DNA from: Oceaniovalibus guishaninsula JLT2003
GTDB lineage: Bacteria; Pseudomonadota; Alphaproteobacteria; Rhodobacterales; Rhodobacteraceae
Assembly (NCBI RefSeq): GCF_000299575.1
Contig: NZ_AMGO01000068.1
Location: forward strand, 1 to 64,000
Direction of reading: 5' to 3'
DNA length: 64,000 bases
How positions within the stretch are numbered: position 1 is the first letter of the stretch; the number at the start of each line of letters is the position of its first letter. This document shows, piece after piece, positions 2,982 through 28,296 of this stretch. The notes beneath the pieces were generated by a model. It was not told the origin of the DNA, did not search any database, and saw only the letters and a list, made by a program, of their open reading frames with translations. The position numbers were made by a program, and so were the translations under genes.

Positions 2982-3995
2982 ATGATACGCATGTTCGCCG
3001 CCGCCGGGGCCGTCGCAATGGTCTCGACGCCGCTGTTCGCCGCCGATGTCGATCTGGTGATGTCAAGCTGGCTGCCGCCGCGCCATCCGATTGTCGTCAA
3101 CGCCATGAAGCCCTGGGCCGAGGAGGTCGAGGAAGTGACCGAAGGCCGCGTGTCGGTGCGCGTGCTCGGCTCGCCCCTGGGTGCGCCGCCTGCGCATTTC
3201 GACATGGCCCGCGACGGCGTGGCCGACATCACCTATGGCCTGCATTCCTTCACCCAGGACGACCGCTTCGACGCGTCCGAGGTCGGCCAGTTCTCGTTCA
3301 TCGGCGACGACGCGGTCGAGGCGTCCAAGGCGTTCTGGACCGTCTATACCGAGGATCTGGGCGCGATCGAGGATCACGCCGGCACCAAGCTGCTGGGCCT
3401 GTTCGTCCACGGCCCCGGCCTTTATCACAACAACCAGCGCAAGATCGAGGCGCCGGGCGACTTCGCCGGCCTGAAGATCCGCGTGCCCGGCGGCTATCCG
3501 GCCGTGTTGATGGAGGGTCTGGGCAGCACCCCCGTCTTCATGCCCTCGACCGAGGTTTACGAACAGCTTTCGCGCGGCGTCATCGACGGCGCGACCTTCA
3601 CCTACGAGGCGCTGACCGCCTTCAACCTGACCGACGACATCAAGTATTCGATGACCCTGCCCGGCGGCATCTACAACACCACCTGGTTTCTGGTGATGAA
3701 CGAAGGCAAGTGGAACCAGATCAGCCCCGAAGACCAGCAGGCGATCATGGACATTTCCGGTCTGGCCTTCGCCGAACGCGTCGGCAAGGCCTGGAACGAT
3801 GCCGACGACAACGCCCGCGCCGAGATCGAGGAAGCGGGGATCGAGCTTTACGAGGCGAACGACGAGGTTCTGGGCACCATCCGCGAGGTCGCGAACCGGC
3901 TGGAACAGGATTGGGCCGACGCCCTGCCCGACGGCAAGGACGGCACCGCCGCGCTGGCCCGCCTGCGCGACATGACCGGCGTGGCGGCCGAGTAA
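2982..3995 (+). CDS. TRAP transporter solute-binding protein (DctP family)
   Basis: Periplasmic receptor of a tripartite ATP-independent transporter. I start it at the ATG at 2982 rather than 2961, because GGGAGG (2969-2974) is a ribosome site for 2982 and the resulting protein begins with a signal peptide, MIRMFAAAGAVAMVSTPLFA followed by ADVDL. The mature protein has the DctP layout, including the SRGVIDGATFTYEAL stretch. About 337 aa, family-typical. It is the first gene of a dctP-dctQ-dctM operon with overlapping stop and start codons. The substrate is unknown; the MarR operator shared with hmgA suggests an aromatic acid of the tyrosine pathway. Confidence 0.92.
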   Translation: MIRMFAAAGAVAMVSTPLFAADVDLVMSSWLPPRHPIVVNAMKPWAEEVEEVTEGRVSVRVLGSPLGAPPAHFDMARDGVADITYGLHSFTQDDRFDASEVGQFSFIGDDAVEASKAFWTVYTEDLGAIEDHAGTKLLGLFVHGPGLYHNNQRKIEAPGDFAGLKIRVPGGYPAVLMEGLGSTPVFMPSTEVYEQLSRGVIDGATFTYEALTAFNLTDDIKYSMTLPGGIYNTTWFLVMNEGKWNQISPEDQQAIMDISGLAFAERVGKAWNDADDNARAEIEEAGIELYEANDEVLGTIREVANRLEQDWADALPDGKDGTAALARLRDMTGVAAE

Positions 3996-24154: not shown

Positions 24155-24192
24155 CACCATTGACGCGAGTCGTTTTTCGGAGGGAGGCCGCC

Positions 24193-24843
24193 ATGTTTCT
24201 TGCAAAAATCCTTGCCGCGGGCGTTGCCGCGCTGGCTTTGGCGGTGCCGGCGGGGGCGGCGACGTTCACCTTTGCCGGGACTGTCAGCGGATCGCCGGGG
24301 CCGGCGGCCATGCCGGACGCGCCCGACTTCCCGCCGCTGGGCGCGGCCGGATCGGTGACGCTGTTCATCGACGACAGCGACCCGTCGCTGGACATCCTCG
24401 ATGCGCTCGACATGGCGTTCTTCGCCGGTGTGTCGGTCAGCGTGCCGGGTTACGTCGCGGGCAGCGCGGATTACAACCCGTTCGAGCCCGCGCGCGTGTC
24501 CCGGACGGGTTTCGGATTTTCGGCCTATGGGCCGACCGACGTGTTCGACCCCGGCGCCTGGACGTTCCTGAGCCAGGGGCTGAACGGCATCGGCGTGACG
24601 TTCCCCACGCTGGCATCCGCGCCCGGCACGGTGGGCGAACTGGTCGCCGCGCTGTCGCAGCCGGGCGTCACCGGCCGCGCCTTCGCCGAGGCCGAGCGCG
24701 AGGGCGGCGGCGGCTTTTACACCACGTTCGTCAGCTTTCCCGCGGCACCCCCTGCGGTGGTGCCGTTGCCCGCGGCGGGCTGGCTGCTGATCGGCGGGCT
24801 GGGCGCACTGGCGGCGTTGCGTAGGCGCCCCCGCGCCGCCTGA
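24193..24843 (+). CDS. VPLPA-CTERM sorting-domain exported protein
   Basis: 216-aa secreted protein. The ATG at 24193 is preceded by GGAGGGAGG. A signal peptide covers MFLAKILAAGVAALALAVPA then GAA. The C-terminus reads VVPLPAAGWLLIGGLGALAA followed by LRRRPRAA: a VPLPA motif, one hydrophobic helix and an arginine cluster. This is the tripartite signal recognised by exosortase-like enzymes in Rhodobacterales. The central region, with TFAGTVSGS and SVTLFIDDSDP, is a typical secreted beta-rich domain of unknown role. No exosortase gene is in the window. Confidence 0.85.
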   Translation: MFLAKILAAGVAALALAVPAGAATFTFAGTVSGSPGPAAMPDAPDFPPLGAAGSVTLFIDDSDPSLDILDALDMAFFAGVSVSVPGYVAGSADYNPFEPARVSRTGFGFSAYGPTDVFDPGAWTFLSQGLNGIGVTFPTLASAPGTVGELVAALSQPGVTGRAFAEAEREGGGGFYTTFVSFPAAPPAVVPLPAAGWLLIGGLGALAALRRRPRAA

Positions 24844-24934
24844 ACGGGGCGGGCGATTTCGGGGCGGGGCGGGAACGTCCGGCCGGCATTTGTCGTTGCC
24901 TTCCGGCGCGTTGTCGCGCGCGAAGGGGGGGATC

Positions 24935-25957
24935 ATGGCGACAGGGGCGACGTTCGGACTGGGCTGCGACATAGCGGTGGCAATCCCGGCGGCGAACGAG
25001 GCACGGTTCATCGGCCCGGCTTTGGCGGCGCTGGCGCGGTCGGCAGCGCAGGCGGGGCGCGCCGTGGGCGCGGTGGTGCTGGCCAACGATTGCACCGATG
25101 CCACGGCATCGGTCGCGCGGGCGGCGGGGGCGCGGCACGGCTTGACCCTGCGGGTGGTGGAATGCCGGCTGCCGCCCCATCGCCGCAATGCGGGCCACGC
25201 CCGGCGGCTGGCCATGGCCGAGGCGGCGGCGATCTGCGCGCCGGGCGGGCTGCTCGTCTCGACCGACGCGGATTCGCTGCTGATGCCGGGCACGCTGGCG
25301 GCGATGGCGGCGGAATGCGCGGCGGGGGCGGACCTGGTCTGCGGCGGGATTTCCACGCGGCTGCCGATGCGGGTCGCGCGGAACCCCTCGATCCGGCGGA
25401 TCGACGCGGCGACGGCAGCCTATGCGCCGCTGGTCCACGAGATCCGGTTCGCCATCGACCGGCTGCACGGGCTGCGGGAGGCGGGGCCGGTGCCGCATTA
25501 CGTGGAATCGGGCGCCTGCATCGCGCTGACGGCGGCGCTGCACCGGCGGCTGGGCGGGCTGCCCGACATCGCGTCGGGCGAGGATCGCGCGCTGGTCCGC
25601 GCCGCCGAGGCGGCGGGCGCGCGGGTGGTCTACAGCGCCGCCGCGCATGCCCGCGTCTCGGCCCGCATCCACGGGCGCGCGCCGGGCGGGATGGCGGCGA
25701 CCATCCTTGCGCGGATGGGCGACGCGGACCCCGCCGCCGATGCGTCGCTGGTGCCGCCCGATCGGTTGCGGCGGGAATGGCGGGCGGCGCTGAACCGCGA
25801 CGCCGCCGCGCGCCGTCCGCCGCCCTGCACCGCCGATCCGCCGCTGCGCGCCAGCGATCTGGAACGGTTGCTGCCCGATCTGCAAGGCTTCGTGGCGGAT
25901 GCCGTGCGGCCGGCGATGGCGGCGCTGGACGCCAAGGCGGGACGGCGCGTCGCATGA
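24935..25957 (+). CDS. Family 2 glycosyltransferase (GT-A fold), first gene of cryptic operon
   Basis: 340-aa GT2-type transferase with no membrane helices. After a short leader it reads DIAVAIPAANEARFIGPALA, the nucleotide-sugar site. VVLANDCTDATASVARAA follows, then the acidic metal motif LLVSTDADSLLMPGTLAAMA. VPHYVESGACIALT and the likely catalytic SGEDRALVRAAEAAG come later. Start at 24935 with an AAGGGGGGGATC ribosome region. It overlaps the acyl-CoA dehydrogenase-like gene by ATGA and heads a four-gene operon with a PIG-L deacetylase and a NodS-like methyltransferase. Donor and acceptor are unknown. Confidence 0.85.
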   Translation: MATGATFGLGCDIAVAIPAANEARFIGPALAALARSAAQAGRAVGAVVLANDCTDATASVARAAGARHGLTLRVVECRLPPHRRNAGHARRLAMAEAAAICAPGGLLVSTDADSLLMPGTLAAMAAECAAGADLVCGGISTRLPMRVARNPSIRRIDAATAAYAPLVHEIRFAIDRLHGLREAGPVPHYVESGACIALTAALHRRLGGLPDIASGEDRALVRAAEAAGARVVYSAAAHARVSARIHGRAPGGMAATILARMGDADPAADASLVPPDRLRREWRAALNRDAAARRPPPCTADPPLRASDLERLLPDLQGFVADAVRPAMAALDAKAGRRVA

Positions 25958-27021
25958 TGTGCGACATCGAGGAGAGGCTGGCCGCGCTGTCGCCGCCCGG
26001 CGACGAGGAGCCGCCCATCGCGCCGTTGATCGACGCGCTGCGGCAGGCGGGGCTGCTGCAAGCCTGCGCGCCGCTTGGGGCGGGCGGGCGCGGCCCGGCG
26101 CATTGCCCGCGCGACCCGGAGGCGCTGGTCGAGGCGCTGGCGGCGGTGGGCGGCGGCAACCTGTCGGCGGGACGTCTGTTCGAGGGGCATGTGAACGCCG
26201 TCAAGCTGATCGCGCTTTACGGGGATCGCGGCGGCTGGCTGGCGCAGGCGGGGCAGGGGCGGCTTTTCGGCGTCTGGGGGGCGGACGGGCCCGATCCGGT
26301 GCGGATCGAGGGCGGCGTGCTGCGGGGCCAGAAGCTTTACGCCTCGGGGGCGGGGGTGCTGGACCGGGCGGTGGTGCCGGTGCGCGACGGCGACGGGCAG
26401 GTGCAGCTTGTCGTGCTGGACACCGCGCGGCTGGCGGGGCGGCTGCATCCGGGCGAATGGCACGTTTCGGGGATGCGGGCCACGGCCTCGGGGCGGTGCG
26501 ACCTGGAGGGCGTGGCGATCGGCGCGGACGATCTGCTGGGCGCGCCAGGCGATTATCACCGCGAGCCGCATTTCCAGGGCGGCGTGTGGCGGTATGCGGC
26601 GGTGCAGATGGGCGCGATGCGGGCGATGACGCGCGCGGCGGCGGCGCAGATTGCGGCGCGGGGGCAGGCCGACGCGCCACTGCAATCGGCGCGGCTGCGG
26701 CGGATGGTCGTGGCCTGCGAAACCGCGCGGCTGTGGCTGGTAAATGCGGCGCGGGTTGTCGAGCGGTCGGACGCCGCGCCGGACGACGCGGCGACGGCGA
26801 TGCTGGCGCGGCTGACCGTCGCGGACGAGGCGGTCGCGCTGATGAACGCGATGGACGAGGCGCTGGGGGCCGCGTCCTTCGCCACGGCGCATCTGGTGGA
26901 ACGGCGGCGGCGCGATCTGCTGTTCTATCTGCGGCAGGCCAATCCCGACGGGCTGGCGCAGACCGCGATGCGGATGGCGGGCGCGGGCGGCGCGCGGGCG
27001 CGGCGATGGCATCTGGCATGA
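25954..27021 (+). CDS. Divergent acyl-CoA dehydrogenase-like flavoprotein
   Basis: 355-aa protein with the acyl-CoA dehydrogenase layout: an N-terminal helical part (EALVEALAAVGGGNLSAGRL), a central beta part (FGVWGADGPDPVRIEGGVLR, SGMRATASGRCDLEGVAIGA) and a C-terminal helical bundle. It is shorter than true enzymes (about 380-400 aa). It lacks the YEGT-type C-terminal motif, having FYLRQANPDGLAQTA there. It may act on a carrier-bound or sugar-linked substrate rather than ordinary acyl-CoA. Its start overlaps the glycosyltransferase stop and its stop overlaps the PIG-L start. Confidence 0.78.
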   Translation: MMCDIEERLAALSPPGDEEPPIAPLIDALRQAGLLQACAPLGAGGRGPAHCPRDPEALVEALAAVGGGNLSAGRLFEGHVNAVKLIALYGDRGGWLAQAGQGRLFGVWGADGPDPVRIEGGVLRGQKLYASGAGVLDRAVVPVRDGDGQVQLVVLDTARLAGRLHPGEWHVSGMRATASGRCDLEGVAIGADDLLGAPGDYHREPHFQGGVWRYAAVQMGAMRAMTRAAAAQIAARGQADAPLQSARLRRMVVACETARLWLVNAARVVERSDAAPDDAATAMLARLTVADEAVALMNAMDEALGAASFATAHLVERRRRDLLFYLRQANPDGLAQTAMRMAGAGGARARRWHLA

Positions 27022-27731
27022 CCCCGCTGCTGGCGGCGGCGACCTTGGCGCCCGAAGTCCCGGCGCGCGCGCTGCTGGACGGGCGGCGCGCGCTGGTGGC
27101 GGTCGCACCGCATCCCGACGACGAGACGCTGGGCTGCGGCGCGCTGCTGCACGAGGCGTATATGGCGGGGGTCGGGACGCGGGTGATGTGCCTGACGGAC
27201 GGATCGGCGTCGCACCGCAATTCGGAACGCTGGCCGCCGGCGCGGATCGCCCAGGTGCGGCGGGCCGAGCTGGATGCGGCGGTGGCGGTGCTGGCGCCGG
27301 GGACGGCGATCGAATGGCTGGGATATGCCGATTGCGGGCTGCCCGAAGGCGGGGCCGAGGCGGATCGCTGCGCCGCGCGGCTGGACGCGGCATTTCCGCA
27401 AGGCGCGCTGGTCGTGGCGGCGTGGGGCGGCGATCCGCATGTCGATCACCGGCGCGGCGCGGCGCTGGTGGCGCGCGCGGTCCGCGACCGGCCCGATCTG
27501 GCGCTGCTGTGGTATCCGATCTGGGGGCGGTTTGTGGATGATGGGGCCGAGGTGCCGCCGATGCGGCGGCTGGCGGCGGGGGCGGCGGCGCTGGCGGCCA
27601 AAAGCCGCGCGCTGGCCTGCCACGCCACGCAGATGACGCGGCTGATCGACGACGATCCGGGCGGCTTCGTCATGGATGCGGCGGATCAGGCGCATTTTCT
27701 GGACCATGCGGAGATCTTCCTTGCCCCGTGA
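27018..27731 (+). CDS. PIG-L family N-deacetylase
   Basis: 237-aa zinc-dependent deacetylase of the PIG-L/MshB/BshB family, which removes acetyl groups from N-acetylglucosaminyl compounds. The metal motif is APHPDDETLGCGALLHEAYM (His32, Asp34, Asp35) and the second histidine element is GGDPHVDHRRGAAL (His141, His144). The ATG overlaps the previous stop. The stop lies 11 bases inside the next gene if that gene starts at the TTG at 27721. Together with a glycosyltransferase and a methyltransferase it suggests an N-acetylhexosamine-containing product. Confidence 0.9.
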   Translation: MTPLLAAATLAPEVPARALLDGRRALVAVAPHPDDETLGCGALLHEAYMAGVGTRVMCLTDGSASHRNSERWPPARIAQVRRAELDAAVAVLAPGTAIEWLGYADCGLPEGGAEADRCAARLDAAFPQGALVVAAWGGDPHVDHRRGAALVARAVRDRPDLALLWYPIWGRFVDDGAEVPPMRRLAAGAAALAAKSRALACHATQMTRLIDDDPGGFVMDAADQAHFLDHAEIFLAP

Positions 27732-28296
27732 CGCCACGCGCGACCATCTGGCCCGGCTTTACGCCGCGAACGCGGACCCCTGGGGGCACCTGACGCGGCC
27801 CTACGAGCGGGCGAAATACGACGCGACCTTGCAGGCGGCGGGCGACGGCCCCTTCGCGCTGGCGCTGGAGGTGGGGTGCGGCAACGGCGCGCTGGCGCTG
27901 CGGCTGGCGGACCGCGCGCGCCGCCTGATCGCGGTCGAGATGATCGCCGACGCCGCGAAAGCCGCGCGCGAGCGGCTGGCGCATCTGGGGCATGTGAGGA
28001 TCGTGGAAGGCGCCGCACCCGAGGCGCTGCCGCCGCTGGCGCCCGACCTGATCGTGCTGTCGGAAGTGCTCTATTTCCTGACCGTGCCCGAGATCGGGCG
28101 GCTTGCGGGCTGGATCCGGGCCCATGCCGCGCCGGGCTGCCGTCTGGTCGCGGTGAACTGGACCGGCGAGACGGGCGAGACGCTGAGCGGCGCGCAGGCG
28201 GCGCGGATCCTGCGCGACGGTCTGGCGGAATGGCGTGGGTCGCACCGGGCCTTCGACGGGTTCGCGATCGACGTGCTGGACGCGCCGGGGGGCTGA
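27721..28296 (+). CDS. NodS-like SAM-dependent methyltransferase
   Basis: 191-aa methyltransferase of the NodS family. The characteristic opening ANADPWGHLTRPYERAKYDA precedes motif I ALEVGCGNGALALRLADRA (about residues 48-66). PPLAPDLIVLSEVLYFLT follows. In rhizobia, NodS N-methylates the deacetylated glucosamine of Nod factor. I choose the TTG at 27721, inside the PIG-L gene end, because CGGAGATC lies upstream and the sequence before it is not conserved-looking; an ATG at 27706 is the alternative. Last gene of the cryptic operon. Confidence 0.85.
   Translation: MPRDATRDHLARLYAANADPWGHLTRPYERAKYDATLQAAGDGPFALALEVGCGNGALALRLADRARRLIAVEMIADAAKAARERLAHLGHVRIVEGAAPEALPPLAPDLIVLSEVLYFLTVPEIGRLAGWIRAHAAPGCRLVAVNWTGETGETLSGAQAARILRDGLAEWRGSHRAFDGFAIDVLDAPGG

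Follow-up and report, generated by a model that had tools for sequence, protein, structure and literature searches.

Positions 1-64,000 of contig NZ_AMGO01000068.1 of Oceaniovalibus guishaninsula JLT2003 (GCF_000299575.1), the 64,000-nt stretch of DNA analysed here and referred to as the window, carry a cassette of four overlapping genes for a GT2 glycosyltransferase (GT), a flavoprotein resembling acyl-CoA dehydrogenases (ACADs), a PIG-L/LmbE deacetylase, and a NodS-like methyltransferase (MT). This four-enzyme cassette is real, widespread, and uncharacterised; no description of it was found in searches of the open literature, whose coverage of subscription papers is mostly lacking. The features of the locus are the following.

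24935-25957, + strand: GT2 glycosyltransferase gene (PF13641, 7e-12)
25954-27021, + strand: gene of the ACAD-like flavoprotein (ACAD-fold model; Pfam ACAD domains match only below their cut-offs)
27018-27731, + strand: PIG-L/LmbE deacetylase gene (PF02585, 3e-23)
27721-28296, + strand: gene of the NodS-like S-adenosylmethionine methyltransferase (PF05401, 4e-14; TTG start, with an ATG open reading frame (ORF) from 27676)
24872-24897, + strand: match to the EcfG-type promoter pattern GGAAC-N17-CGTT, starting 63 bp 5' of the GT start

ATGA overlaps join the GT2 gene to the ACAD-like gene (25954-25957) and the latter to the PIG-L gene (27018-27021), and the methyltransferase start, ATG 27676 or TTG 27721, is nested in the PIG-L gene. 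The TTG start is more likely because the length of the product then fits that of its relatives. The four overlapping genes are presumably co-transcribed. An earlier note on this DNA had given the same coordinates, gene order, and enzyme types and had taken the genes to be made together; the overlaps and the nested start agree with the latter, and the enzyme types were borne out by Pfam (GT2, PIG-L, NodS) and by the fold (ACAD).

The gene order is conserved far beyond chance. Apart from the window's own genome, at least four genomes of a class sample (n=289) encode the ACAD-like protein, as do at least 7 of 13 genus-mates (36-41% identity). Ten of the 12 stretches around these matches hold all four genes, ordered GT-ACAD-PIG-L-MT or ACAD-PIG-L-MT-GT, and the incomplete ones are L015 (ACAD and MT only) and L025 (ACAD and PIG-L, at a contig end). 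A larger set comprised the best 80 of at least 464 relatives from a scan of named genomes, nearly all alphaproteobacterial, the exceptions being L089 (Advenella) and L091 (a metagenome-assembled genome labelled Bacteroidetes). All four genes were detected by tblastn in 62 of these 80 loci, never more than 4 kb from the ACAD gene, and in 53 they share one strand; taken singly, the methyltransferase was detected in 77, the GT in 70, and the PIG-L in 66, while the PIG-L of L109 escaped tblastn and was recovered by clustering. PIG-L-methyltransferase fusion proteins are encoded at L072 and L077. At L097, L102, L103, and L109, the genes stand in a seven-gene run of GT4, GT2, GT28-type, ACAD, PIG-L, MT, and GT2. 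In a sample of the phylum, at least 29 of 398 genomes match the ACAD-like protein at 1e-30, and among the 28 other than the window's (two of which, G283 and G012, were already counted in the earlier samples) a methyltransferase lies within 1.5 kb in 27, a PIG-L in 24, and the order ACAD-PIG-L-MT in 23. Sixteen more distant loci from this sample, seen as stretches of 8.6-17.5 kb, hold ACAD, PIG-L, and MT together in 14 cases and all four genes in 12, of which 11 are ordered ACAD-PIG-L-MT-GT. These genome-search rates are lower bounds, with at most seven candidates scored per genome in the class sample and five in the phylum sample, and the locus maps rest on home-made ORF callers.

Full sets are also found on plasmids of Deinococcus, Nostoc, Acinetobacter, and Comamonas, and further plasmid copies in Roseivivax, Paracoccus, Sulfitobacter, Novosphingobium, Komagataeibacter, and Bradyrhizobium. 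Plasmid records of Pandoraea and Kitasatospora show three genes, the GT not being annotated; a Cupriavidus plasmid carries ACAD-MT-GT with the PIG-L a few kb off, and a Methylobacterium plasmid a lone ACAD gene. The order is conserved, and no match to a known pathway was found, the two points on which the earlier note had staked its claim of a new system. Pairwise protein distances correlate between the cassette genes (Spearman 0.52-0.77, 56 full loci), which could arise from shared ancestry alone. The closest copies to the window's ACAD-like protein, among the matches listed, are those of Roseivivax and Paracoccus; the former and most of the latter are about 55-68% identical to it, against 36-41% for the genus-mates (L019-L026), in which the GT is the last gene wherever seen. 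Given this contrast in identity, a transfer between lineages may lie behind the copy in the window.

The glycosyltransferase has a confident GT-A fold model (AlphaFold2, AF2, pLDDT 92.6), with the DAD motif (D111/D113) kept in 77/77 sequences and the ED motif (E216/D217) in 76/77, one having a gap. Its hydrophobicity maximum over 19 residues is 1.47, so that it has no membrane-type stretch; the family includes three proteins, of 77, at or above 1.9. Judged from this profile, the window's GT2 is a soluble enzyme and, as the earlier note had it, the operon lacks a NodC-type membrane synthase. There is no close solved relative, the best solved fold being WrtF (query TM 0.44). Glucosyl-3-phosphoglycerate synthase and other soluble GT-A enzymes share the soluble GT-A fold and give a weak profile match (1e-6), but the query TM is about 0.4 and the GT2 scores 27.8 bits against the 262-bit cut-off of that synthase.

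The deacetylase belongs to the PIG-L family, with PF02585 above its cut-off and the HPDD and HxDH motifs present. Its HPDDE and DPHxDH motifs are intact: H32, D35, E36, D143, and H144 are found in 77/77 sequences, and D34 and H141 in 76/77. It is the sole Pfam PIG-L match in the genome (2.9 Mb, 68 contigs). The closest solved relatives are 1uan, Dac, BshB, and MshB, which include deacetylases of diacetylchitobiose, GlcNAc-malate, and GlcNAc-inositol. The likeness to MshB, BshB, and Dac (mycothiol/bacillithiol and diacetylchitobiose) lies in the motifs and in these structures; the difference is that the cassette PIG-L scores below every equivalog cut-off and has no thiol-pathway partner in the gene maps. 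A mycothiol- or bacillithiol-like pathway was dropped because the equivalog cut-offs were not reached.

The methyltransferase passes the broad Pfam NodS domain PF05401 (53.3 bits, cut-off 24). In a profile search, its closest solved structures are 4isc (4e-44), labelled only Methyltransferase, and NodS 3ofj (3e-27). The DPW...YE segment is largely common to NodS, and the motif residues D-P-W, Y-E, K, and S-E..Y occur in 78-80 of 80 sequences. The cassette resembles the Nod-factor system (NodC, NodB, NodA, NodS) in glycosyl transfer, deacetylation, and methylation of the NodS type (profile match 3e-27). It differs in having a soluble GT2 where NodC is a membrane enzyme, an additional flavoprotein, and a methyltransferase with 58.5 bits against the NodS equivalog cut-off of 300; we also take PIG-L and the NodB deacetylase of the Nod system to be different families. 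NodA gave no match in the window's genome, but control genomes gave none either. The score below the NodS cut-off and the solubility of the GT2 led to the rejection of Nod-factor membership. Of the Nod-like logic put forward earlier, deacetylation and N-methylation are plausible and the Nod-factor frame is unsupported: the cassette resembles Nod-factor modification in logic and is not a Nod system.

The model of the flavoprotein (AF2 pLDDT 83.8) has the ACAD fold. Among the 50 Foldseek matches listed, query TM to ACAD-fold chains is 0.69-0.81; TdsC takes rank 1 and TdsC/DszC ranks 3-11 (DszC third), with a chain labelled putative acyl-CoA dehydrogenase at rank 2. Its profile likewise matches TdsC (4e-16) and DszC (7e-15) best. 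The catalytic Glu of ACADs stands in the YEGT motif in the MCAD type and in helix G in the IVD type. As the earlier note had observed, the window's protein is divergent and lacks YEGT, the corresponding stretch being YLRQANPD. In a comparison with four ACADs of the window's genome, the YEGT Glu position is Ala329 by an ungapped count or Asn330 by a profile alignment that has gaps of very low confidence there; the model loop at 328-330 agrees with either placement, and neither of the two columns shows a conserved acid. The helix-G position is Gly210, which is Gly in 80/80. The structure prediction upholds the kinship with acyl-CoA dehydrogenases named in that note; by sequence, the YEGT Glu is missing from its customary position, with the conserved acid D332 nearby. 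Nine residues are unchanged in 80/80 sequences, namely E77, H79, A82, W108, G125, K127, W169, R286, and Q328. From these data, we read the protein as a distinct, active flavoenzyme. The group D monooxygenases (DszC/TdsC, SfnB, KijD3/DnmZ) share the ACAD fold and give the best sequence and fold matches; Ser163 of DszC aligns by manual count with Ser131, which is Ser in 77/80 and Thr in 3/80. The flavoprotein differs from them in its own invariant E77/H79, W108, and Q328 and in scores below the SfnB and DszC cut-offs; the SfnB model is matched by 25/26 family members, with the window's protein far under its cut-off. Group D includes the sugar N-oxygenase KijD3, and some of its enzymes N-hydroxylate (PMC5481743). 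The flavoprotein would resemble these enzymes in acting as a monooxygenase; a role as acyl-CoA dehydrogenase is less probable.

The cassette is associated with stress genes in many, though not all, places. Nine markers were sought by tblastn (KatE, Ku, LigD, DUF892, YetF, OtsA, GlgX, TreY, MalQ); the test measures association because the markers were chosen from cassette neighbourhoods, and the loci are related to each other. At least one marker was found in 36/80 loci of the large set, 7/16 distant loci, 6/14 plasmid loci, and 2/12 class-sample and genus-mate loci. Spaced control stretches from ten genomes held one in 1/40, and the cassette stretches of the same ten genomes in 4/10. The 29 genomes that contain 30 of the 80 loci have 38 long catalases in about 110 Mb, a density at which the 80 loci, 1.31 Mb in all, would be expected to hold less than one; a catalase was observed near the cassette in 21/80 loci by clustering and 24/80 by tblastn. 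For example, the cassette of a Comamonas plasmid is flanked by otsA and otsB (OtsA-ACAD-PIG-L-MT-GT-OtsB), and that of an Acinetobacter plasmid lies near catalase, DUF421, and otsA/otsB. At L178, L179, L184, and L185, a second PIG-L follows 3' of the cassette, which lies near trehalose/glycogen genes of the TreY, MalQ, and GlgX type.

The promoter match upstream of the GT2 gene is the only such match in the window, in which 0.86 would be expected by chance. The genome encodes PhyR, NepR, a sigma-70 family factor, and an HWE kinase adjoining one another, and the sigma factor is called EcfG because of its position beside PhyR and NepR. With this pattern and these genes present, the operon is a candidate member of the EcfG (general stress) regulon. 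The EcfG motif of S. melonis is reported to be GGAAC-N17-20-GTT, and Ku, catalase, and glycosyltransferase genes to depend on EcfG there (PMC6599016). The strict site lies upstream in 9/79 loci against 24/464 control operon starts (p 0.037), and an earlier tally, in which spacers of 15-17 were allowed, stood at 7/79 against 26/876. In the 26 Rhodobacterales loci, the strict form is found in 7/26 against 9/148 control starts (p 0.003) and the relaxed form GGAAC-N16/17-NGTT, whose -10 pattern was picked after the data were seen, in 17/26 against 25/148 (p 1e-6). A looser operon definition gave, for Rhodobacterales, 6 strict (controls 9/100, p 0.06) and 14 relaxed (controls 20/100, p 0.001). Taxon groups for these counts were assigned by the author on the basis of record titles, with L050, L059, L064, L089, and L091 excluded. 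The notion that every copy is an EcfG target was dropped: the motif is enriched in the Rhodobacterales set only, and an unbiased dyad search did not place GGAAC-CGTT in its top 15.

All 12 Methylobacterium genomes without a PIG-L at the ACAD locus carry a cassette-type PIG-L (258-288 bits) elsewhere, as expected if the pathway is shared: five beside a methyltransferase, five 2-3.5 kb from a GT, one in a second ACAD-PIG-L-MT set, and one alone. The idea that the PIG-L is dispensable was rejected on this count, with L104 remaining as an exception. The Methylobacterium loci L087, L093, L101, L115, and L112 show the ACAD gene followed by (the MT and) a cytochrome b561-type membrane protein, a possible electron partner, and at L078, L082, L095, L098, L106, and L111 a stand-alone LigD 3'-phosphoesterase domain gene lies between GT and ACAD.

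The most likely reading, held tentatively at just short of an even chance, is a pathway linked to stress whose product, a small aminoglycoside that is deacetylated, N-methylated, and oxidised by a flavin enzyme, protects stressed or non-growing cells. Together the four genes would make up a single conserved pathway in the cytosol, in many cases connected with general stress responses. The GT2 would link a sugar, most simply N-acetylglucosamine (GlcNAc) from UDP-GlcNAc, to an acceptor; the PIG-L would strip the N-acetyl group, and the NodS-like enzyme would methylate the freed amine. The flavoprotein, using reduced flavin and O2 in the manner of DszC or KijD3 and not as an acyl-CoA dehydrogenase, would oxidise the amino-glycoside, most likely at nitrogen. 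We infer the sugar, the order of the reactions, the N-methylation, the oxidation, and the protection. A more specific form, quite improbable by our own estimate, has the product as an N-hydroxylated, N-methylated aminosugar glycoside, a hydroxylamine able to turn into a nitrone, that the cell makes as a radical-trapping protectant beside catalase and trehalose in the general stress response of several phyla.

Several observations weigh against the stress-linked aminoglycoside. None of the nine markers was found by tblastn in the 64-kb window, in 44/80 loci, or in 10/12 class-sample and genus-mate loci, and the catalase of the window's genome lies on a different contig from the cassette. Sphingomonads (0/18) and Methylobacterium (0/13) show no enrichment of the promoter motif. 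Regarding the gene set, a search of the L104 genome found no cassette-type PIG-L, the genome of L112 gives a weak methyltransferase match only, and no PIG-L or GT was found near the ACAD gene at L153/L015 (G283). Regarding the flavoprotein, monooxygenases lead only narrowly, since named dehydrogenases appear from Foldseek rank 20 with similar E-values; the cassette core contains no flavin reductase; His391 of DszC is not kept, Gln328 standing there by manual count; and D332, which is D or E in 79/80 and lies two to three residues past the dehydrogenase Glu position, could act as a catalytic base.

Modification of a glycan or glycolipid is rather unlikely and the best of the other explanations: the cassette would alter a sugar carried by a polysaccharide, lipid, or envelope glycan that is produced elsewhere, with a lipid or a sugar carbon as the target of the flavoprotein. 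Two Brevundimonas and two Sphingomonas loci, where the cassette belongs to a run of seven genes that also includes GT4, GT28-type, and one further GT2 gene, are consistent with it, as is a reported EcfG-dependent run of glycosyltransferases with an exopolysaccharide gene in S. melonis Fr1 (#3505-3509), which could not be matched to the cassette in the accessible part of the source (PMC6599016). The GT2 is soluble, however, and in the gene maps the core has no recurrent partner among flippases, polymerases, or membrane synthases. True acyl chemistry, in which the substrate desaturated by the flavoprotein is an acyl-CoA or acyl-ACP, D332 perhaps serving as the base, and the acyl group is then joined to the deacetylated aminosugar to give a lipo-aminosugar, appears improbable. 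Database records name the protein an acyl-CoA or acyl-ACP dehydrogenase, in keeping with its fold, and this explanation was given more weight, and the oxidised aminoglycoside and its N-hydroxylated form less, because the alignment at YEGT is weak and an acid is conserved nearby at 332. It is opposed by Ala329 or Asn330 at the YEGT Glu position, Gly210 at that of helix G, scores under the Pfam ACAD cut-offs, and plasmid records and gene maps in which neither an acyltransferase nor a carrier gene is a recurrent neighbour of the set. An aminoglycoside that is secreted or acts as a signal, in competition or communication, with stress genes adjacent only since both are accessory, is quite improbable: plasmid copies are many (47 and 38 records), the distribution among genus-mates is patchy (7/13, 36-41% identity), and MFS genes adjoin some copies, but the gene maps show neither an exporter nor a resistance gene as a recurrent part of the core, and genes for stress or trehalose turn up repeatedly beside the cassette in separate classes.

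Around the window's copy, the ORF 5' of the cassette (24160-24843) has no Pfam match and encodes a protein ending in VPLPAAGWLLIGGLGALAALRRRPRAA, which we take to resemble a VPLPA-type (PEP-CTERM-like) sorting signal. A thiolase gene and phenylacetate genes of the PaaA/PaaC type lie 3' of the cassette.

The cassette is found in alpha-, beta-, and gammaproteobacteria, in Deinococcus, in Nostoc, and, with three genes, in an actinomycete; its frequent place among stress genes and the lack of any recorded product in the searches, together with this spread, point to a widespread unseen stress metabolite. Its flavoprotein would form a distinct branch of the ACAD fold.

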